Assembly: GCF_000585375.1 (NCBI RefSeq)
Contig: NZ_KK073874.1
Coordinates: 4,278,001-4,342,000 of the forward strand
Direction: 5' to 3'
DNA: 64,000 nt
Source: Cryptosporangium arvum DSM 44712
Lineage (GTDB): Bacteria; Actinomycetota; Actinomycetes; Mycobacteriales; Cryptosporangiaceae
Shown here in pieces: positions 45,473-55,782 of the stretch. The translations under genes and the position numbers were made by a program. Every line of letters starts with the position of its first letter. The first letter of the stretch is position 1. Below the pieces are notes generated by a model. That model worked only from the letters and a program-made list of their open reading frames with translations. It had not been told where the DNA came from and made no database searches.

Positions 45473-46585
45473 ATGCTGAGCACGCGTGCGCTCAACCGCG
45501 CGACCCTGGCCCGTCAGCTGCTCCTCGAGCGGGCCGACGTTCCCGTCCTTGACGCCGTCGCGCACCTCGGAGGGCTGCAGGCGCAGGAGCCGCAGGAACC
45601 GTTCATCGGGCTCTGGTCGCGGCTGCGTGGCTTCGACCCGGCGGCGCTGTCCGGGCTGCTCGTCGACCGGCGGGTGGTGCGCACCCACCTGATGCGGCGC
45701 ACCGTGCACCTGCTGCCCACCGACGACGTCCTGGCCTGGCGCTCCCGGTTCGACCCGATGCTCCGCCAGCGGCTGCTCGGGGTCTACCGCCGCGACCTGG
45801 ACGGGATCGATCTCGACGCGCTCGCCGCCGAAGGCGCGCGGCTCCTGGCCGACGGGCAGCCGCGCACGACGGCCGAGGTCGGCCGCCTGCTGTCCGAGCG
45901 CCGCCCCGGCCCGGCCCCGGGCGCGGCTCCGAGCCCGGCCCCGGCCCCCCGGATCCTGGGAGAGACCGTCGTCACCGTGCTGGTCCCGACCGTGCAGCTA
46001 CCGCCACGCGGGCTGTGGGGCGCCACCGGCGGCGTCCGTGTCGTTCCGCTGGAAACCTGGGTGGGCCGGGCCGTCGCCCCGGACACCGAGGCGGTCGGGG
46101 AGGCGCTGATCCGGCGCTACCTGGCCGCGTTCGGCCCGGCCGCCACGGCCGACCTCCGCGCCTGGTGCGGCCTCGCCGGCCTGCCCCGCGCGGTCGCGGC
46201 GGTGCGGGACGCGCTGGTCTCCTTCCGCGACGAGCGCCGCCGCGAACTGCTCGACCTGCCCGACGCCCCGCGGCCGGACCCGGACACCCCGGCGCCGGTG
46301 CGGTTCCTGCCCGCGTTCGACAACGCGATCCTCGGCTACGACGACCGCACCCGGATCGTCGACGACGCCCACCGCGGCCTGTCGGTGGCCGGGGAGCGCG
46401 CGGTGCTCGTCGACGGGCGGGTCGCCGCACTGTGGACGGCTCGGGACGCGACCGTGGAGGTCACCCCGCTGCGCCGGTTCTCCCGCGCCGAACGGACCGC
46501 GGTCGCCGAGGAAGGACGGCGGCTGGCCACGTTCCTCTCCGGTGGGAAGAGCTCCCGGGTGCGGGTGAACGCCTCACCCCGCTGA
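45473..46585 (+). CDS. Winged-helix DNA-binding domain protein (AlkZ/YcaQ-like, HTH_42)
   Basis: A 370-residue member of the winged-helix HTH_42 family (DUF1006/AlkX-YcaQ relatives). Typical elements: ALNRATLARQLLLERADVPV, LGGLQAQEPQEPFIGLWSRL, RRTVHLLPTDDVLAW, DLRAWCGLAGLPRAV, and FLPAFDNAILGYDDRTRIVD. Some relatives are DNA glycosylases for crosslinks or alkylated bases (the catalytic QxQ-type motif appears here as LQAQEP); this subgroup is common in actinomycetes and mostly uncharacterised. An Ala/Pro-rich insertion (about 143-160) looks like a linker. Its 3' end overlaps the convergent dehydrogenase by 12 nt. Confidence 0.83.
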   Translation: MLSTRALNRATLARQLLLERADVPVLDAVAHLGGLQAQEPQEPFIGLWSRLRGFDPAALSGLLVDRRVVRTHLMRRTVHLLPTDDVLAWRSRFDPMLRQRLLGVYRRDLDGIDLDALAAEGARLLADGQPRTTAEVGRLLSERRPGPAPGAAPSPAPAPRILGETVVTVLVPTVQLPPRGLWGATGGVRVVPLETWVGRAVAPDTEAVGEALIRRYLAAFGPAATADLRAWCGLAGLPRAVAAVRDALVSFRDERRRELLDLPDAPRPDPDTPAPVRFLPAFDNAILGYDDRTRIVDDAHRGLSVAGERAVLVDGRVAALWTARDATVEVTPLRRFSRAERTAVAEEGRRLATFLSGGKSSRVRVNASPR

Positions 46586-49390
46586 GCGGGGCGGCGCGAG
46601 CAACTGGGCCAGGTGCACCGACGGGCGGTCGCGCAGGTCGGCGACCTGGGTGCGGCAGGAGAAGCCGTCCGCGAGGACCACGGCGTCCGGGTCGGCGTCC
46701 AGGGCCGGCAGCAGCTGCTGCCCGGCCACCGCGACCGACACGTCGTAGTGGCCGAGCTCCACGCCGAAGTTGCCGGCCAGGCCGCAGCAGCCGGACAGGG
46801 TCCGGACCGTCGCGCCGGTACGGGCCAGCAGCCGCGCGTCGGCCTGCCAGCCCAGCACCGCGTGGTGGTGGCAGTGCGGCTGCGCGACGACCGTCGTGCC
46901 GGTCAGGTCCGGCGGGGTCCACCCGGGCGTCCGGTCGAGCAGTTCGGCCAGCGTCACGGTCGCCCCGGCCACCGCCTCGGCGTCCGCGGAGCCGAGCAGC
47001 TCCAGCGCGTCGGAGCGCAGGACCGCGGTGCACGACGGCTCGACGCCGACGATCGGGATCCCGTCGCGCGCGGCCGCGGCGAACCGGCTGACCGTGCGGC
47101 CGAGTATCCGCTTGGCCGCGTCGAGCTGGCCGGTGGTGATCCAGGTCAGGCCGCAGCACGTCCCCGGGTCGGGCAGCGTCGGCTCGTACCCGGCGTCGCG
47201 CAGGACGTCGACGACGGCGCGCGCGGCCTCGGGTGAGAACGCGTCGGAGAACGAGTCGACGAACAGCAGCACGGGGGTGCGGGTGCCGGCGACCGGGCGC
47301 TGCCGGCTCCACCAGCGGCGGAACGACGTCGACGCGAACTCCGGCACCGAGCGGCGCGCGTCGACCCCGGCCAGCGCCAGCGAGAGCCGCTTGAGGCCCG
47401 GCAGCCGGGTCGCCGCGTTGGCCACCCGGGCGGTGAGCGCCGACCGGCCGGCCAGGCGGGCCCAGCGCGGCAGCCACCCCAGCGTGTAGTGCGACCGCGG
47501 CCGCACCCGCCCCCGGTAGCTCTGGTGCAGCGCCTCGGACTTGTAGGTGGCCATGTCGATGCCGGTCGGGCAGTCCGAGGCGCAGCCCTTGCAGGACAGA
47601 CACAGATCCAGCGCGTCGTGGACGCCGGGCGCGCGCCAGTCGAGCTCGCCGCGCACCACGTCCTGCAGGACCCTGGCCCGGCCGCGAGTCGAGTCCTTCT
47701 CCTCGCGGGTGGCCAGATAGGACGGGCACATCACGCCGCCCGAGGCGGAGTTGTCGGCCCGGCACTTGCCGACCCCGGTGCAGCGGTGCACGGCCTCGGC
47801 CAGGTCACCGCGGTCGTGCTGGTAGAGAAAGGCCAGCTCCCTGCGGTAGCTGACGCCGGCCGGCCGCACGTCGGCGTCGAACGGATCGGGGTCGACGAGC
47901 ACCCCGGGGTTGAGCAGATCGCCCGGGTCGAACGCGTGCTTGACCGCGCCGAACAGCGCGATCGCGTCGGGGGAGTACATCAGCGACAGCAGCTCGCCGC
48001 GGGCCCGGCCGTCGCCGTGTTCGCCGGAGATCGAACCGCCGAACTCGGCGACCAGCCCGGCCGCCGCGGTGAGGAACGCACGCAGCACGTGGGTGCCGTC
48101 GGCCCGGTCGAGCGGGAAGTCGAGCCGGACGTGCATGCAGCCGTCGCCGAAGTGCCCGTACGGCGCCGCGGTCATGCCGTACTCGGCGACCAGCCCGTCG
48201 AACCTCGCGAGGTACGCGCCGAGCCGCTCCGGGGGCACCGCGGCGTCCTCCAGGCCGGGCCAGGCCGGGCGACCCGACGGGGCCCGGCCGGCCAGACCGG
48301 CGCCGTCCTCGCGGATGCGCCACAGCCGGGCCTGCGCGGCCGGCTCCTCGACCAGCAGGGACTCCACCCCCAGGTCGGCCGCGGCCAGGCGGCGGGACCG
48401 GTCGAGGACGTCGGCCCTGTCGTCGCCGGCGATCTCCACGAACAGCCAGGCGCCGCCGCGCGGCAGGGGCGGCACCGCGGCGTCCCCACGCCGGTTGCGC
48501 AGCACGTCGACGAGCCGCTCGTCCATGCCCTCGCACGCGGTGGGGGAGAACGTGACGACCGTGGGCGCGGCCTCCCCGGCGGCGACGATGTCGCGGAAGC
48601 CGATCGCGACCAGGATCCGGTGGGCCGGGTCGGTCACCAGCCGGACCGTCGCCTCGGTGAGGACGCCGAGCGTGCCCTCCGAGCCGATCAGCGCCTGGCC
48701 GACGTCGAACCGCTCGGGCAGGAGGTGCTGCACGGCGTAGCCGCTGAGCTGGCGGCCGAACCGGTCGAACTCGGTCCGCGCGCTGGCCAGGTGGCGCCCG
48801 GTGGCGGCGCGGAGGTCGGTGAGCAGCTGCGCGGGGCCGTCGACGGTGGGCGCGCCGGCGGCGTCGTACCCGGTGCGCAGTGTCTGGCCGTTCGCCAGCA
48901 GATGGGTCATCGCGAGCACGTTGTCGGAGGTGCGCCCGTAGCCCAGCGCCCGGTTGCCGCACGCGTTGTTCCCGATCATGCCGCCGATCGTGCAGCGCGG
49001 ATGGCTGGACGGGTCGGGGCCGAACCGCACGCCCAGCGGCAGCGCCGCCTTCTGCAGGACCGCGTGCACGGTGCCCGGCTCGACGACGGCGCGCCGCGAC
49101 CCGGCGTCGATGTCGAGGACGCGGCCCAGGTGGCGGCTGAAATCGACGACGATGCCCCGCCCGATCGCGTTGCCGGCGATCGACGTGCCGCCGCCCCGGC
49201 TGGTCAGCGGCACCCCGAGCGCGCGCGCGACCTCGAGCGTCGCCGCCACCTCGTCGACGTGGCGGGGGCGGACGACGGCGAGCGGCGGGATCCGGTACAG
49301 CGAGGCGTCGGTGGAGTACATCGCCTTGGTCGCCGCGTCGTCGCGGAACTCCAGCCCGGCACGCGTCAGCGCCCCGGCCACGTCAGTCAT
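46574..49390 (-). CDS. FAD-linked and Fe-S-binding dehydrogenase fusion (D-lactate/2-hydroxyacid type)
   Basis: 938 residues. Domains in order: FAD-binding type 4 (LTSRGGGTSIAGNAIGRGIV; IGGMIGNNACGNRALGYGR), FAD-oxidase C-terminal (APYGHFGDGCMHVRLDFPLD; SGEHGDGRARGELLS), a ferredoxin-like region with CTGVGKCRA and CLSCKGCASDCP (4Fe-4S ligands), then CCG-type domains (DPGTCCGLTW; LSGCCGLAGNFG). This is the GlcD-GlcF fusion seen in YdiJ/Dld-like enzymes that oxidise D-lactate or D-2-hydroxyglutarate to the respiratory chain. ATG 49390 leaves the palindrome at 49405-49416 outside the coding region; ATG 49411 lies within it. Divergent GntR gene upstream. Confidence 0.9.
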   Translation of the reverse strand: MTDVAGALTRAGLEFRDDAATKAMYSTDASLYRIPPLAVVRPRHVDEVAATLEVARALGVPLTSRGGGTSIAGNAIGRGIVVDFSRHLGRVLDIDAGSRRAVVEPGTVHAVLQKAALPLGVRFGPDPSSHPRCTIGGMIGNNACGNRALGYGRTSDNVLAMTHLLANGQTLRTGYDAAGAPTVDGPAQLLTDLRAATGRHLASARTEFDRFGRQLSGYAVQHLLPERFDVGQALIGSEGTLGVLTEATVRLVTDPAHRILVAIGFRDIVAAGEAAPTVVTFSPTACEGMDERLVDVLRNRRGDAAVPPLPRGGAWLFVEIAGDDRADVLDRSRRLAAADLGVESLLVEEPAAQARLWRIREDGAGLAGRAPSGRPAWPGLEDAAVPPERLGAYLARFDGLVAEYGMTAAPYGHFGDGCMHVRLDFPLDRADGTHVLRAFLTAAAGLVAEFGGSISGEHGDGRARGELLSLMYSPDAIALFGAVKHAFDPGDLLNPGVLVDPDPFDADVRPAGVSYRRELAFLYQHDRGDLAEAVHRCTGVGKCRADNSASGGVMCPSYLATREEKDSTRGRARVLQDVVRGELDWRAPGVHDALDLCLSCKGCASDCPTGIDMATYKSEALHQSYRGRVRPRSHYTLGWLPRWARLAGRSALTARVANAATRLPGLKRLSLALAGVDARRSVPEFASTSFRRWWSRQRPVAGTRTPVLLFVDSFSDAFSPEAARAVVDVLRDAGYEPTLPDPGTCCGLTWITTGQLDAAKRILGRTVSRFAAAARDGIPIVGVEPSCTAVLRSDALELLGSADAEAVAGATVTLAELLDRTPGWTPPDLTGTTVVAQPHCHHHAVLGWQADARLLARTGATVRTLSGCCGLAGNFGVELGHYDVSVAVAGQQLLPALDADPDAVVLADGFSCRTQVADLRDRPSVHLAQLLAPPRSAG

Positions 49391-49404
49391 CTGGGCAGTC
49401 ACAT

Positions 49405-49416
49405 GTAGCATGCTAC
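49405..49416. promoter_or_regulatory. GntR-type operator between dehydrogenase and gntR
   Basis: GTAGCATGCTAC, a perfect 12-bp palindrome in the 28-nt gap between the divergent start codons 49390 and 49419. Regulator binding here would block both genes, and the gntR transcript probably has almost no leader. Confidence 0.65.
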
Positions 49417-50823: not shown

Positions 50824-51765
50824 TCAGGCGGCGGGCACCGACTCCTCGGCGGCACGCCCGGCGCTCTTCTCCGCGGCGAGCAGCGCGTCGATCTGCCCGT
50901 GCCAGCCGCTGCCGGGCACCGCGAGCACCGGCACCGGCCGGGCGGCGGCCCGGCGGCGCACCGTGCGGCGGTGGAACTCGCTGAGGATCGTGCGCAGCAC
51001 CCGGGCGCCGTCCCGGAACGTGTTGAGGTTGCTGGTGCCGTGGATGCGCAGGTGCTCGATGCTGGAGACCTCCTTGACCCGGACGCCGCTGTCGGCCACC
51101 CGGATGTTGATGAGCGTCTCGATCTCGAAGCCGTCGCCCCACCGCTTCCTGCCGTCGGCCCGGGCCGGCAGGTCGGTGGAGGGCAGGTCCATCACCGGCA
51201 CCATCCGCCGCCAGAAGGCGTTGTAGCCGTAGCAGAGGTCGGTGAACCGGGTCTTGAACAGCGTGTTGACGACCAGGTTCAGCCCTTCGTTGCCCACCCG
51301 GCGCAGCGGCGTGATGTCCTTGCTGTGGCCGCCCGGACCGAACCGCGAACCCTTGGCGAAGTCGGCCCCGGTGATCAGCGTCTCGACGAACCGGGTGATC
51401 TCCGCCGGATCGGTCGACCCGTCGGCGTCGATCATCACGATCGCGTCGCCGGTGCAGGCGGCGAACCCGCTCGCCAGCGCGTTGCCCTTGCCCGTGCGGG
51501 TCTGCCGGACGACGACCACGTCGGGCCGCAGCCCGCGGGCGACCTCGACGGTGTCGTCGGTCGAACCACCGTCGACCAGGACGACCTCGTGCAGGCCGGC
51601 CGGCAGCGCCGCGAACACGTGCGGCAGGTTCAAGGCCTCGTTCAGCGTCGGAATGACGACACTGACGAGGGGCGCGCGCCGCGGCGCGCCCCGCGGGGTG
51701 CTGCGGCGGTCGCGGGGACCGGCGGTCTGCGGTGCGACGCGGCGCTCGGAGCGGTCTACCGGCAT
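50824..51765 (-). CDS. GT2-family glycosyltransferase (DPM1/polyprenyl-phosphate sugar type)
   Basis: 313 residues. A 35-residue basic Arg/Pro-rich extension precedes the GT-A domain: VSVVIPTLNEALNLPHVFAA, VLVDGGSTDDTVEVARGL, and the metal-binding DADGSTDPAE (DxD). KGSRFGPGGHSKDITPLRRV is typical of bacterial DPM-like GT2 enzymes that load a sugar onto a lipid carrier or cell-wall polymer. No C-terminal membrane anchor is seen. Acceptor unknown. Divergent from the LodA-VWA gene. Confidence 0.88.
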   Translation of the reverse strand: MPVDRSERRVAPQTAGPRDRRSTPRGAPRRAPLVSVVIPTLNEALNLPHVFAALPAGLHEVVLVDGGSTDDTVEVARGLRPDVVVVRQTRTGKGNALASGFAACTGDAIVMIDADGSTDPAEITRFVETLITGADFAKGSRFGPGGHSKDITPLRRVGNEGLNLVVNTLFKTRFTDLCYGYNAFWRRMVPVMDLPSTDLPARADGRKRWGDGFEIETLINIRVADSGVRVKEVSSIEHLRIHGTSNLNTFRDGARVLRTILSEFHRRTVRRRAAARPVPVLAVPGSGWHGQIDALLAAEKSAGRAAEESVPAA

Positions 51766-51909: not shown

Positions 51910-54900
51910 ATGCGGACAGCGAGGGTCAGGTTGGCGACTACATACCGCATTCATCCGGCGATCGGCGTCGCGCGGCTGGGCAACAGCCCCGACGCCTACT
52001 TCGTCGGCCCCGAGCGGCCCGGCGAACGGCCGTCTCCGGGCACGTTCAAGGACGAGCAGTTACGGATCAAACGGCAGGCCGCCCGGTTCCGGATCTTCGC
52101 CCACCACGACGACGGGAGCACCGAGGAGATCACCTCGGCGCAGGCCCGGATCGGCTGGACGGTCCACCTGGCCAACCGGAAGGCCACGAACCCCGCGGCG
52201 CGCAACGACGAGCCGGACGCCGACCTGGTCATCGACCCGGGCCCGCGCACGGTCGAGGGCCCCGACCAGCGGGCCGCGTTCGACACCGGCGTGATCCGGT
52301 TCGCCGGCCAGCGCCCGGCCACCGTGCCGCTGGGTGAGGTCCGCACCGAGCCCGACGGCCGGTTGCTCGTGCTCGGTGGCTCCGGCACGTCCGCCTCGCC
52401 GGGCGGCAACCTGGTCGGCTCGCTGTGGAACCCCGGCTGGTACGACGACGCCGCCGACGGCCCGGTCACCGCGACGCTCACGCTGCCCGACGGTTCGACG
52501 CCTCCGGTGGAGGGCGCGTGGGTGATCGTCGGGCCGCCGAAGTTCGCCCCGCACCAGGACAGCGTGGTCTCGCTCTACGACCGGCTGCTCTCCCGGATGG
52601 TGGCGCTGAACCTCGTCCCGGCCCCGGCGGCGACGTCCTACACCGCCGACATCTACCCGATTCTCCAGCGGGCCGCCGACGTCCGGTGGGTGCAGAGCGT
52701 CGGGCGGGCCCACGGCTGGGCGCACCCGGTCACCGAGCAGCGCCTGGTCGACCGGATCGTCGGCCGGCTCCGCCCGGCCGGAGACATGCCGCTGCTGGCC
52801 GGGGACGACTCGGCGCTCACCGACGTGCAGACCGCGCACGTCGCCCGGTGGAAGTCCGGTCAGTACGCCAAGGACTGGAACGGCGTGCCCGCGGTGGCCG
52901 CCGAGGTGACGCCGGACGGGCTGGACCGCGCGGCGCTCGAGGCCTGCGTCGGCGGGGCGTTCGCGCCCGGCATCGAGGCCGGCGGCGAGAACGACCAGCC
53001 GATCCTGCTCTCGACGTACACGGCGGCGTTCCGGCTCGACCACACCACGCTCGCGCCCGGTGCGCTCACCGTCGGCATGTCGCTGCCCTGGCAGGACGAC
53101 TTCAGCGCGTGCGGCCAGAACTGGTGGCCCGCGCCGCGGCCCAACGACGTCTTCGAGCGGGTCGGCGCGACCGCCGCGGTGCCGTGGGACCGGGAGGTCG
53201 GCAGCGGCGACGAGATGGTCGTGCACTGGCACACGCTCGGCTTCGTCGTCCCGCAGGGCGACCAGCAGGTGGAGACCGAGCACACCGACGCCCCGGCGAT
53301 CACGCTGCTGACCCCGCACCTCGACTTCGCCGACGTCGAACAGGGGCTGCTCGGCATGATCCGGGAGGAGGTGCTCCCGATCCGGTTCTCGGTACGCACA
53401 CCGACGACGCTGGTGCTCACCGCCCCGGCGCACCCGCAGCTCACCGCGGTGGTCGCCGAGGTCACGGTCGACCCGGAGCAGGACCCGACCGCCGAGTTCC
53501 CGATCGCCTACCGCACCGGCGTCGCGCCCTCGGCGGTGCCCACCCAGACCTTCACCGTCACCGAACCCTCCACCGGGCGGACCTGGCCGATCAGCGTCGA
53601 CGCGAACACGGTGGCCCGGCGTCCGGCCGCGACCGCGCTGGTGCTCGACCGGTCGGGCAGCCTGACCGCCGCCGGCCGAGGCACCCAGCTGCGCAAGGCC
53701 GCCCAGTCGCTGGCCAACCTCCTGCCGGACGGCGACGGCGTGGGGATCGTCGGGTTCGCCGCCGACGCCGAGGTGCTCCAGCCGGTGCTCCCGCTCGATG
53801 CCGCGACCCGGGCCGCGAGCCTGGGCGTGCTCACCGGCCCGGGCCTCGACCCGAGCGGGAAGACGTCGGTGGGCGACGGGGTGAGCGCCGGGCAGAACCT
53901 GCTGGAGGCCGCGACCGGCTTCGGCCCGAAGGCGCTGGTGCTGCTCACCGACGGCGTCGAGAACGCGCCGAAGCCGGTGGAGGACGTCATCGGCGAGACC
54001 ACCGACCCGGTCCACGCGATCGAGATCGGCCCCCCGAACTCGATCGGGGTGCCGGTGCTCGGCGCGCTGGCCGGCAACACCAACGGGACGTTCCGCACCA
54101 GCACCGACACCGCGCTGGGGGCGTCGACGATGCAGGTGCTGGCCGAGGTGACCGGGAGCCAGCCGGTGACCACCGCGAACGGGCGGCTCGCGCCGGGCGC
54201 GGTGCGGCGGATCCCGTTCCAGCTCACCGAGGCCGACAGCGGCATCGACGTCCTGCTGCTCACGCCGACGCCGGACGCGGTCGACTTCCGGCTGCAGACG
54301 CCGATCGGCGAGCTGATCGAGCCCTGGCAGGCGATCGCGGCCCCGAGCATGCGGTTCGGGATCGCCGGCGGCGTCACCTGGTACCGGCTCGCGCTGCCGG
54401 TGCAGCAGCGTCCCGGCCGGTTCGAGCGGGCCGGGACCTGGCACGTCGTGATCACGCCCGGCCGGCCTCGCACCGAGCCGGCGCCGGGCACGGACCGCTC
54501 GGTCCTGCGGGGAGCAACGGCCACCCGCCGGACGGCGATGGCGGCCGTACCCGAGCCGGCCTACCGGTCCGAGCTCGAGCGGGCCTTCGCGGTGATCTCC
54601 GCCCCGGTGGCGACCCAGCGCGCGGCCGTCGCGCCCGCGCCCGGTCTCGCGTACGCGCTCCGGGTGCACGCCTGGTCGTCGCTGTCGCTGCTGGCCGACG
54701 TCACCCAGTTCGAGTTCGCACCCCGGTCCCCGGTGGAGCTCTCGGCGCGGCTGACGCAGTCCGGCCGGGTGCTGAGCACCGGGGTGAGCGTCTCGGCCGA
54801 GATCACCCCACCGACCGGCGCCGTGACCCGGACCGCCCTGACCGGGGACGGCGGCTTCTTCACCGGCAACTTCACGGTCACCGCGGCCGGGTCCTACCAG

Positions 54901-55011
54901 GTGCGCTTCGTCGCCCAGGGCAAGGCGGCCAACGGCCAGCCGTTCACCCGGGAGCGGCTGAGCAGCGCCGCGGCCTGGGTGGGGGAGACGAGGCCGCCGG
55001 CGGAGGGCTGA
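51910..55011 (+). CDS. LodA/GoxA-like (CTQ oxidase family) protein fused to a von Willebrand A domain
   Basis: 1033 residues. The first half matches LodA-like proteins (lysine/glycine oxidases with cysteine tryptophylquinone): YRIHPAIGVARLGNSPDAYF, RIKRQAARFRIF, EACVGGAFAPGIEAGGEND and VGMSLPWQDDFSACGQNWW. Cys346 and Trp405/406 occupy the places of the crosslinked Cys and Trp. From about 575 to 760 there is a VWA domain with MIDAS LDRSGSL (Asp580, Ser582, Ser584) and LLTDGVEN (Asp681), then a beta-rich C-terminus (WHVVITPGRPRT; ELSARLTQSGRVLSTGVSV). No signal peptide, and no LodB flavoprotein gene in the window. TTG 51931 is an alternative start with a better ribosome site. Confidence 0.85.
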   Translation: MRTARVRLATTYRIHPAIGVARLGNSPDAYFVGPERPGERPSPGTFKDEQLRIKRQAARFRIFAHHDDGSTEEITSAQARIGWTVHLANRKATNPAARNDEPDADLVIDPGPRTVEGPDQRAAFDTGVIRFAGQRPATVPLGEVRTEPDGRLLVLGGSGTSASPGGNLVGSLWNPGWYDDAADGPVTATLTLPDGSTPPVEGAWVIVGPPKFAPHQDSVVSLYDRLLSRMVALNLVPAPAATSYTADIYPILQRAADVRWVQSVGRAHGWAHPVTEQRLVDRIVGRLRPAGDMPLLAGDDSALTDVQTAHVARWKSGQYAKDWNGVPAVAAEVTPDGLDRAALEACVGGAFAPGIEAGGENDQPILLSTYTAAFRLDHTTLAPGALTVGMSLPWQDDFSACGQNWWPAPRPNDVFERVGATAAVPWDREVGSGDEMVVHWHTLGFVVPQGDQQVETEHTDAPAITLLTPHLDFADVEQGLLGMIREEVLPIRFSVRTPTTLVLTAPAHPQLTAVVAEVTVDPEQDPTAEFPIAYRTGVAPSAVPTQTFTVTEPSTGRTWPISVDANTVARRPAATALVLDRSGSLTAAGRGTQLRKAAQSLANLLPDGDGVGIVGFAADAEVLQPVLPLDAATRAASLGVLTGPGLDPSGKTSVGDGVSAGQNLLEAATGFGPKALVLLTDGVENAPKPVEDVIGETTDPVHAIEIGPPNSIGVPVLGALAGNTNGTFRTSTDTALGASTMQVLAEVTGSQPVTTANGRLAPGAVRRIPFQLTEADSGIDVLLLTPTPDAVDFRLQTPIGELIEPWQAIAAPSMRFGIAGGVTWYRLALPVQQRPGRFERAGTWHVVITPGRPRTEPAPGTDRSVLRGATATRRTAMAAVPEPAYRSELERAFAVISAPVATQRAAVAPAPGLAYALRVHAWSSLSLLADVTQFEFAPRSPVELSARLTQSGRVLSTGVSVSAEITPPTGAVTRTALTGDGGFFTGNFTVTAAGSYQVRFVAQGKAANGQPFTRERLSSAAAWVGETRPPAEG

Positions 55012-55032: not shown

Positions 55033-55782
55033 TCACACCGCGGTGAACGCGTTGTCGACGAAGAGCTGCGCGCCGTTGACGAACGAGGCCTCGTCGCTGA
55101 GCAGGAAGAGCGCCGCACTGGCGACCTCTTCCGGGGTGCACATCCGCCCCTGCGCGGCGGCGATGGCCTCGTCCGAAACGTCCACACCGTACTTCGTCAG
55201 CAACGCGACCTCGTTCCGGCCGTGCGGGGTGTCGATGAAACCGGGGCAGACCGCGTTGCAGCGGATGCCCCGGTCGCGGAACTCCACCGCGACGGCCCGG
55301 GCGAACTGGTGCACGGCGCCCTTCGTGACGTCGTACAGCACCTCGGCCGGCGTCGCCGCGACCGCCGAGATCGACGAGGTGCAGACGATCGCACCCCGCC
55401 CCGCCCCGAGCATCCCGGGCAGCACCGCCTGGGTCATGACGAACATCGAGCGCACGTTGACGTCCATCAGGAAGTCGTAGTCGTCCATGGTGGTCTCCAG
55501 GAACGGCTTCACGACGAGCGTGCCGGCGTGGTTGAACAGCAGGGTCGGCGGGCCGAGGGCGGCGGTGCCCGCGGCGACGGCGGCCCGGACCTCGTCGGGC
55601 CGGCCGACGTCGGCCCGGGCGAAGAAGCCGCCCACCTCGTCGGCCAGGGCCCGGCCGAGCTCTTCCTGGCGGTCGACGACGATCACCCGCGCGCCCTGCT
55701 CGGCCAGGAGGCGCACCGCGGACGCGCCCGCGCCACCGGCCCCGCCGGAGACCAGCGCCACCCGCCCCGCGAAGCGGCTCAC
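55033..55782 (-). CDS. Short-chain dehydrogenase/reductase
   Basis: 249-residue classical SDR: nucleotide loop LVSGGAGGAGASAVRLL, an NAG element as LLFNHAGTLV, catalytic Ser in CTSSISA and YDVTK (YxxxK), and PGFIDTPHGRNE after it. The Asp in VVDRQEE suggests NAD(H). GTG 55782 overlaps the stop of the permease gene (GTGA), so it acts with that permease, probably oxidising or reducing a derivative of the imported amine or amino acid. A small hairpin (55015-55031) separates it from the convergent LodA-VWA gene. Confidence 0.9.
   Translation of the reverse strand: MSRFAGRVALVSGGAGGAGASAVRLLAEQGARVIVVDRQEELGRALADEVGGFFARADVGRPDEVRAAVAAGTAALGPPTLLFNHAGTLVVKPFLETTMDDYDFLMDVNVRSMFVMTQAVLPGMLGAGRGAIVCTSSISAVAATPAEVLYDVTKGAVHQFARAVAVEFRDRGIRCNAVCPGFIDTPHGRNEVALLTKYGVDVSDEAIAAAQGRMCTPEEVASAALFLLSDEASFVNGAQLFVDNAFTAV

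Follow-up and report, generated by a model that had tools for sequence, protein, structure and literature searches.

The locus and its fusion gene

The stretch of DNA analysed here (the window) comprises 64,000 nucleotides of the genome of Cryptosporangium arvum DSM 44712 (contig NZ_KK073874.1, positions 4,278,001 to 4,342,000) and harbours a gene that joins a LodA-like half, from the LodA/GoxA family of cysteine tryptophylquinone (CTQ) oxidases, to a tail containing a von Willebrand A (VWA) domain (Table 1). On the sequence evidence set out below, we think it likely that this gene encodes a CTQ oxidase that is matured in trans by a LodB homologue encoded 1.99 Mb away and placed by its VWA tail. 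Residue numbering throughout counts from the ATG at 51910; G000 denotes the window’s own genome and G001, G002 and G003 three congeners.

The reading frame at 51910–55011 on the plus strand is uninterrupted. Translation probably begins at TTG 51931 (codon 8) rather than at the upstream ATG, because the first methionine of the homologues aligns there, with GAGGG five bases upstream. A Pfam domain search bore out the fusion of a LodA-like half to a VWA half proposed in a preliminary description of this DNA: LodA_N, LodA_C, VWA_2 and VWA all exceeded their curated cut-offs, and the LodA_C match was the only one in the genome. Scores against the equivalog models for LodA (NF038172, lysine 6-oxidase; 147.3 bits against a curated 600) and GoxA (NF038173, glycine oxidase; 199.3 bits against a curated 750) fell below their cut-offs, so we file the protein as a member of the family, neither as LodA nor as GoxA. 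The same architecture occurs at full length, with 46–62% identity, in ten further loci: three from congeners, five from Kribbella, one from Variovorax and one from a deltaproteobacterial metagenome-assembled genome (MAG). This recurrence in four lineages leaves virtually no chance that the two halves are joined by a frame or assembly artefact, an outcome that the preliminary description had allowed for.

Table 1: Features of the fusion gene and its surroundings, in window positions.
Feature	Position	Strand	Description
LodA-VWA fusion gene	51931..55011	+	1026 aa from TTG 51931; ATG 51910 gives 1033 aa
LodA_N domain	51952..52530	+	Residues 15–207; Pfam PF17990, E 2.2e-57, 195 bits vs cut-off 26.3
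LodA_C domain	52807..53145	+	Residues 300–412; Pfam PF18417, E 1.6e-18, 67.3 bits vs cut-off 25
CTQ motif	53098..53127	+	Asp397, Cys401, Trp405-Trp406; by alignment to 3weu/2ymw
Portable tail	53314..55008	+	Residues 469–1033 (565 residues): beta linker, VWA domain, beta-rich C-terminal part
VWA domain	53632..53997	+	Residues 575–696; Pfam VWA_2 575–682, E 2.3e-7; VWA 577–696, E 2.3e-5
Upstream divergent neighbour	50824..51765	-	Glycosyltransferase family 2; outside the system
Downstream convergent neighbour	55033..55782	-	Short-chain dehydrogenase; outside the system

The cofactor site

Alignment with the solved structures of LodA (3weu, 2ymw) places the segment PWQ-x-D397-FSA-C401 on LodA PWQADFFNC516 and W405-W406 on LodA W580-W581; the PWQ...C segment is likewise matched in an alignment with GoxA. 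Counting along the alignment, the CTQ pair Cys401-Trp406 corresponds to C516-W581, the residues given as those of the LodA cofactor (PMC4417212). Asp397, Cys401, Trp405 and Trp406 are invariant in all 12 aligned rows. The preliminary description had named Trp405/406, which includes the tryptophan of the pair, but its candidate cysteine, Cys346, is ruled out: it aligns with LodA C442 and is glycine in the Deltaproteobacteria row. In GoxA, CTQ still forms when Asp678 is mutated (PMC7876137). Cysteine and tryptophan lie five residues apart in the fusion protein and 65 apart in LodA.

A distant LodB homologue and the order of its genes

The claim that the fusion gene lacks a LodB partner held for the neighbourhood and failed for the genome. 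Pfam revealed no LodB-like product among the neighbouring genes scanned, and none of the matches from searches of the whole genome (seven with the LodB model, 11 with a Kribbella LodB) falls within the window. These searches did uncover a LodB homologue at about 6,319,998–6,321,263 (L040:8986-10296). It was matched in two pieces by the NCBIfam LodB model (136.8 and 47.6 bits; next place 32.6) and by the Kribbella LodB (196.3 and 39.2 bits; next place 42.3). The best NCBIfam family for the protein itself is maturase_LodB (NF038171; 185.8 bits, 1.2e-54), and four LodB genes that adjoin LodA-VWA genes (in G001, G002, Variovorax and Kribbella L002) score 199–235 bits against the same model. Its frame is open and, judged by eye, it keeps the GxGxxG and GDAA-x-DP motifs, as does the LodB of G003.

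Gene order sets the window genome apart from most others. The downstream gene could be read at 11 full-length LodA-VWA loci (the window included) and encodes a LodB homologue at nine of them: five in Kribbella and one each in Variovorax, the Deltaproteobacteria MAG, G001 and G002. The exceptions are the window genome and G003. A twelfth LodA-VWA locus (L007) ends at a contig edge and is not among the 11. Gene boundaries outside the window came from a home-made caller, except in annotated plasmid records.

All four genus members share a conserved block that runs from DUF4331 through a tetratricopeptide repeat (TPR) protein and a membrane-type protein (its likeness to NicO and DsbD is weak and falls below the cut-offs) to LodB, with LodA-VWA inserted before LodB only in G001 and G002. 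Beyond LodB come proteins of 149 and 462 aa that belong to no Pfam family, followed by a CoxE-type VWA protein and, in stretches long enough to include them, an AAA ATPase (MoxR type is our own label) and a DUF5682 protein; the Pfam scan of the block was made on the G000 genes. In the window genome and in G003, LodB stands alone at this syntenic position: its start follows the final sense codon of the membrane-protein gene by 68 and 32 bases, respectively, which leaves no space for LodA. The CoxE-type VWA, AAA ATPase and DUF5682 genes of the window genome were seen at about 6.3246–6.3290 Mb of G000:C1 (L040:13596-18000).

In the stretches compared, the surroundings of the window gene are not shared with G001–G003 beyond generic likeness. 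Its neighbours and those of the G003 LodA-VWA locus have in common only the likeness of ATP-binding cassette (ABC) ATPases, at 41% and 32%, and DNA matches to other window flanking genes sit away from LodA-VWA in the three congeners. Beside LodA-VWA and LodB in Kribbella, Variovorax and Deltaproteobacteria we recognised no other conserved partner, with gene-by-gene inspection covering L002, L003, L009 and L005; a Pfam scan of four Kribbella frames came back empty.

Histories of the two halves of the pair

LodB looks to have been inherited vertically within the genus. Its identity is 64–73% among genus members and 45–49% to Kribbella, the four genus sequences form one clade (support 100/100), and an approximately unbiased (AU) test rejected a grouping of G000 and G003 with Kribbella (p 8.5e-41). 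The LodB tree had 13 rows, in which two Kribbella rows start late and the Delta row has a leading stretch; G233 was left out of the AU tests.

The LodA-VWA proteins of the genus fall into two versions whose mutual distance is at least as great as that of either to Kribbella. The LodA half of the window protein is 70% identical to that of G003, 62–63% to those of G001 and G002 and 65% to that of Kribbella, with corresponding values of 56%, 45–46% and 48% for the tail. In trees of the LodA half, the window protein and G003 group with Kribbella at 81–94 bootstrap, never with starred support. Monophyly of the genus was rejected for this half in three versions of the test that included L007 (p 1.9e-4, 5.8e-5 and 3.3e-5), and a single clade of the genus plus L007 received p 0.015. 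Without L007, monophyly was not rejected, whether for the LodA half (p 0.122 and 0.224), the full length (p 0.201) or the tail (p 0.547, the tree held to monophyly being slightly better). The presence of L007 thus decides the outcome. The LodA tree had 15 rows, with G615 (L081) left out, and later tests dropped three outgroups or L007; the full-length and tail trees were built without L007, in which the gene is truncated.

These contrasting histories suggest a swap of partners, in which the genus would have acquired one of its two LodA-VWA versions horizontally, and the LodB already resident there, itself inherited vertically, would now mature a LodA with which it did not coevolve. The identities, the LodB clade and the tests that include L007 all point that way, whereas the dependence on L007 and the lack of starred support do not, and a gene that evolved faster after its relocation would give much the same picture. 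We put the chances of such a swap at somewhat below even.

L007 itself (L007:4041-6077) is a LodA-VWA gene on a 6-kb contig of a Nitrososphaerales MAG and lies nearest to the G001/G002 version. A 2015 survey reported no LodA in Archaea (PMC4417212), and the contig may have been mis-binned.

Full-length LodA-VWA proteins were found in four of 397 genomes of the order sample, all from this genus, and in one of 394 and one of 396 genomes of the class and phylum samples, in each case the window’s own. These tallies are lower bounds, as two or three candidate places were scored per genome; there is overlap between the samples, and the rows from which alignments A2 and A4 were built match by construction. 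The family sample consisted of five genomes from two genera.

A tail shared with other enzymes

The VWA domain retains a complete metal ion-dependent adhesion site (MIDAS), made up of D580-x-S582-x-S584, T652 and D681, which agrees with the preliminary description; its columns are invariant in all 12 tails of alignment A4, whose proteins carry N-terminal parts of five kinds. The domain resembles the VWA of CLCA1 (6pyo) in sequence (E 4.7e-6) and in fold (template modelling (TM) score 0.67 on target). An AlphaFold2 model of the tail (residues 471–1033), of modest confidence with a mean predicted local distance difference test (pLDDT) score of 58.7, was used solely as support for the VWA fold; a full-length model built on nine rows (mean pLDDT 46.2) was discarded.

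The tail recurs behind unrelated proteins. Among 72,556 plasmid records, residues 456–1033 match three, from Caballeronia, Haloarcula and Microvirga, with front halves that are an M14 carboxypeptidase (2.8e-52; from Caballeronia insecticola) and two tyrosinases (9.2e-43 and 4.9e-28). Near-full tails occur in three of 389 genomes of the class sample (the window’s own, one with an ASH/HYDIN-type immunoglobulin (Ig)-domain protein and one with a third tyrosinase, 4.7e-26) and in five of 377 of the order sample (four with LodA-VWA and one with an S8 subtilase, 2.9e-25). All these census rows except the third tyrosinase and G001 were model rows and so match by construction. Besides LodA, the near-full-length tail is therefore attached to three tyrosinases, an M14 carboxypeptidase, a subtilase and an Ig-type protein, while a trypsin-like protein has a VWA with partial likeness only.

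Of the nine tails found in other genera, seven have a cysteine-containing stretch at the end, whose cysteines are missing from the subtilase and the Ig-type protein; the whole of this end is absent from all four genus members. Hydropathy profiles of ten proteins of the LodA, tyrosinase and M14 types, the window protein included, showed neither a transmembrane segment nor a clear signal peptide: the highest mean over 19 residues was 1.12–1.43 in the ten, compared with 3.62 in a membrane-anchored control. In G101, a LodA half is joined to a tail that, by eye, lacks the VWA core, and Pfam gives no VWA match there.

Each of the three tyrosinase-VWA genes is directly preceded by a small gene or frame (L082:3045-3299, L084:2846-3046 and one directly upstream of L087:784). 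These frames encode 84 aa, 66 aa and a similarly short product, all alike by eye, and possibly specify a maturation helper.

Proposed mechanism and alternatives

For LodA and GoxA, the first tryptophan hydroxylation is thought to be autocatalytic, with LodB or GoxB then performing the second hydroxylation and the crosslink (PMC7876137); deamination by these enzymes yields H2O2 (PMC4699246). By analogy, we infer a scheme for the window protein in which Trp406 would first be mono-hydroxylated, perhaps with the involvement of Asp397. The flavoprotein LodB, made from its locus beside the DUF4331–TPR–membrane protein block, would pair with the LodA half in trans and add the second hydroxylation and the Cys401-Trp406 crosslink to form CTQ. 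The mature enzyme would then act on a primary amine or amino acid as substrate, deaminating it oxidatively to an aldehyde or keto acid with release of NH3 and H2O2, and the VWA tail would bind a partner as its ligand through the MIDAS metal and so set where the oxidase acts. The surface-binding amine oxidase envisaged in the preliminary description is possible within this scheme.

Several observations weigh against maturation by the distant LodB or against an unaltered oxidase. The published argument that a LodB serves only the LodA encoded in the same operon (PMC4417212) counts against a distant, perhaps non-cognate LodB as the maturase. None of the six LodB genes that were scored reaches the curated threshold of 400 for the LodB model, and for the gene of G003, which is unlinked, the GoxB model gives a slightly higher score (218.8 bits) than the LodB model (205.0 bits); with every score below 400, the LodB label rests on rank and context, and we file these genes as homologues rather than equivalogs. 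The LodB of the window genome carries two low-complexity Ala/Gly/Pro-rich inserts absent from aligned relatives, which perhaps reflect relaxed constraint. No shared promoter stretch was detected: a comparison of the regions upstream of the fusion gene and DUF4331 gave nothing beyond shuffles, and the fusion gene’s upstream region has no common eight bases with the 68 bases before LodB. Two residues of the LodA half are peculiar to the window protein: alanine at residue 352 (phenylalanine in 10 and tyrosine in one of 11 relatives), which aligns with LodA C448 and GoxA H583, and leucine at residue 172 (phenylalanine in all 11), which aligns with GoxA F316. We take C448, H583 and F316 to be substrate-pocket positions, their numbering having been checked by alignment counting. 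Substrate or activity may therefore have changed.

These two substitutions, together with the loss of a common operon for lodA and lodB, would also fit a catalytically dead LodA half that serves as a scaffold while the VWA half does the work, a possibility raised in the preliminary description. That reading finds no support in the cofactor residues, since Asp397, Cys401 and Trp406 are kept in all 12 rows, and the genome still has a LodB gene whose frame is open. Among seven distinct rows, changes unique to one protein at otherwise invariant columns of the LodA half number 14/186 in the window protein, 14/186 in the Delta row and 11/183 in Variovorax; in the tail they number 21/140, 25/144 in G003 and 17/136 in Delta. 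The LodA half is thus the better-kept half of the window protein, and we read no loss of function from its changes because the Delta row has as many. Ala352 and Leu172 are accordingly better seen as a hint of a changed pocket than of lost function, and a dead scaffold appears improbable.

The window protein might instead need no LodB, processing itself or relying on another flavoprotein, since lodB is not adjacent and the genome offers nine further weak flavoprotein matches; those matches reach at most 42 bits, compared with 196 for the LodB homologue, and both species whose LodA is unlinked have kept LodB at the syntenic position, which makes this quite unlikely as well.

Having preferred an oxidase matured in trans by the distant LodB, we also consider a broader and more doubtful proposal: that the tail is a portable targeting cassette (beta linker, MIDAS-type VWA, beta-rich part and usually a cysteine-containing end) grafted by microbes onto enzymes whose targets are side chains or peptides (CTQ amine oxidase, tyrosinase, M14 carboxypeptidase and S8 protease) and, jointly, that the LodA of the genus has been uncoupled and is matured by a distant resident LodB with which it did not evolve. 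If true, the rule that every LodB belongs to one neighbouring LodA would no longer hold. Whether CTQ formation requires a LodB from the same operon becomes testable, and the presence of linked pairs in two congeners and split ones in two genus members makes exchanges of LodA and LodB between them a ready-made experiment. A second testable question is whether unrelated oxidases and proteases owe a common address or partner to the VWA tail that they share. The split pair and the portable tail are the parts worth following.

Relation to known systems

Campillo-Brocal et al. (2015; PMC4417212) tabulated fusions of LodA-like proteins with catalase-like, pfam14518 and VWA domains, contrary to the earlier suggestion that known LodA proteins stand alone. 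Their VWA (pfam13519) fusions are Amycolatopsis vancoresmycina H480_25957 (1114 aa) and Cryptosporangium arvum CryarDRAFT_3973 (1026 aa), and C. arvum is the sole genome of that survey without lodB close to lodA. The LodA-VWA fusion was thus already published in 2015, and the window gene, which matches CryarDRAFT_3973 in length, VWA fusion and the lack of a close lodB, is probably the same gene. Its place at 4.33 Mb also suits locus number 3973, assuming about 0.9 gene per kb from the contig start. In its available part, the paper points to no C. arvum lodB elsewhere and to no such tail on other enzymes; it was also the only relevant item, judged from listings in one library, on this tail behind other enzymes or on LodA with VWA. 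What we add is the distant LodB homologue, the split and linked pairs among congeners, the histories of LodB and LodA, and the portable tail.

LodA, the L-lysine epsilon-oxidase of Marinomonas mediterranea, shares LodA_N, LodA_C and the cofactor Asp, Cys and Trp with the window protein; it differs in having no VWA tail, in the wider Cys-Trp spacing, in having C448 where the window protein has Ala352, and in an operon in which lodB follows lodA. GoxA, the glycine oxidase of Pseudoalteromonas luteoviolacea (6byw, 6eer and others), aligns over the PWQ-x-D-xxx-C cofactor region; it too lacks the tail and has H583 in place of Ala352. The VWA domains of CLCA1 and of the pilus protein PilB (7b7p) match that of the window protein in sequence and fold, but these domains are attached to other proteins; other structures outranked CLCA1 in the fold search. 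The tyrosinase-VWA proteins (Microvirga ossetica WP_099514959.1 and Haloarcula sp. JP-L23 QIO24726.1) and the M14-VWA protein of Caballeronia insecticola are homologous over the length of the tail, with an invariant MIDAS, but carry another enzyme in front and keep the cysteine-containing end that is missing in the four genus members.

Neighbouring genes

The convergent short-chain dehydrogenase gene downstream leaves the fusion gene standing alone. A flavoprotein is encoded nearby at 46577–49411 (minus strand): it is a large fusion of FAD_binding_4, FAD-oxidase_C, 4Fe-4S and CCG domains, unlike those of LodB, and presumably of the D-lactate or glycolate dehydrogenase kind.

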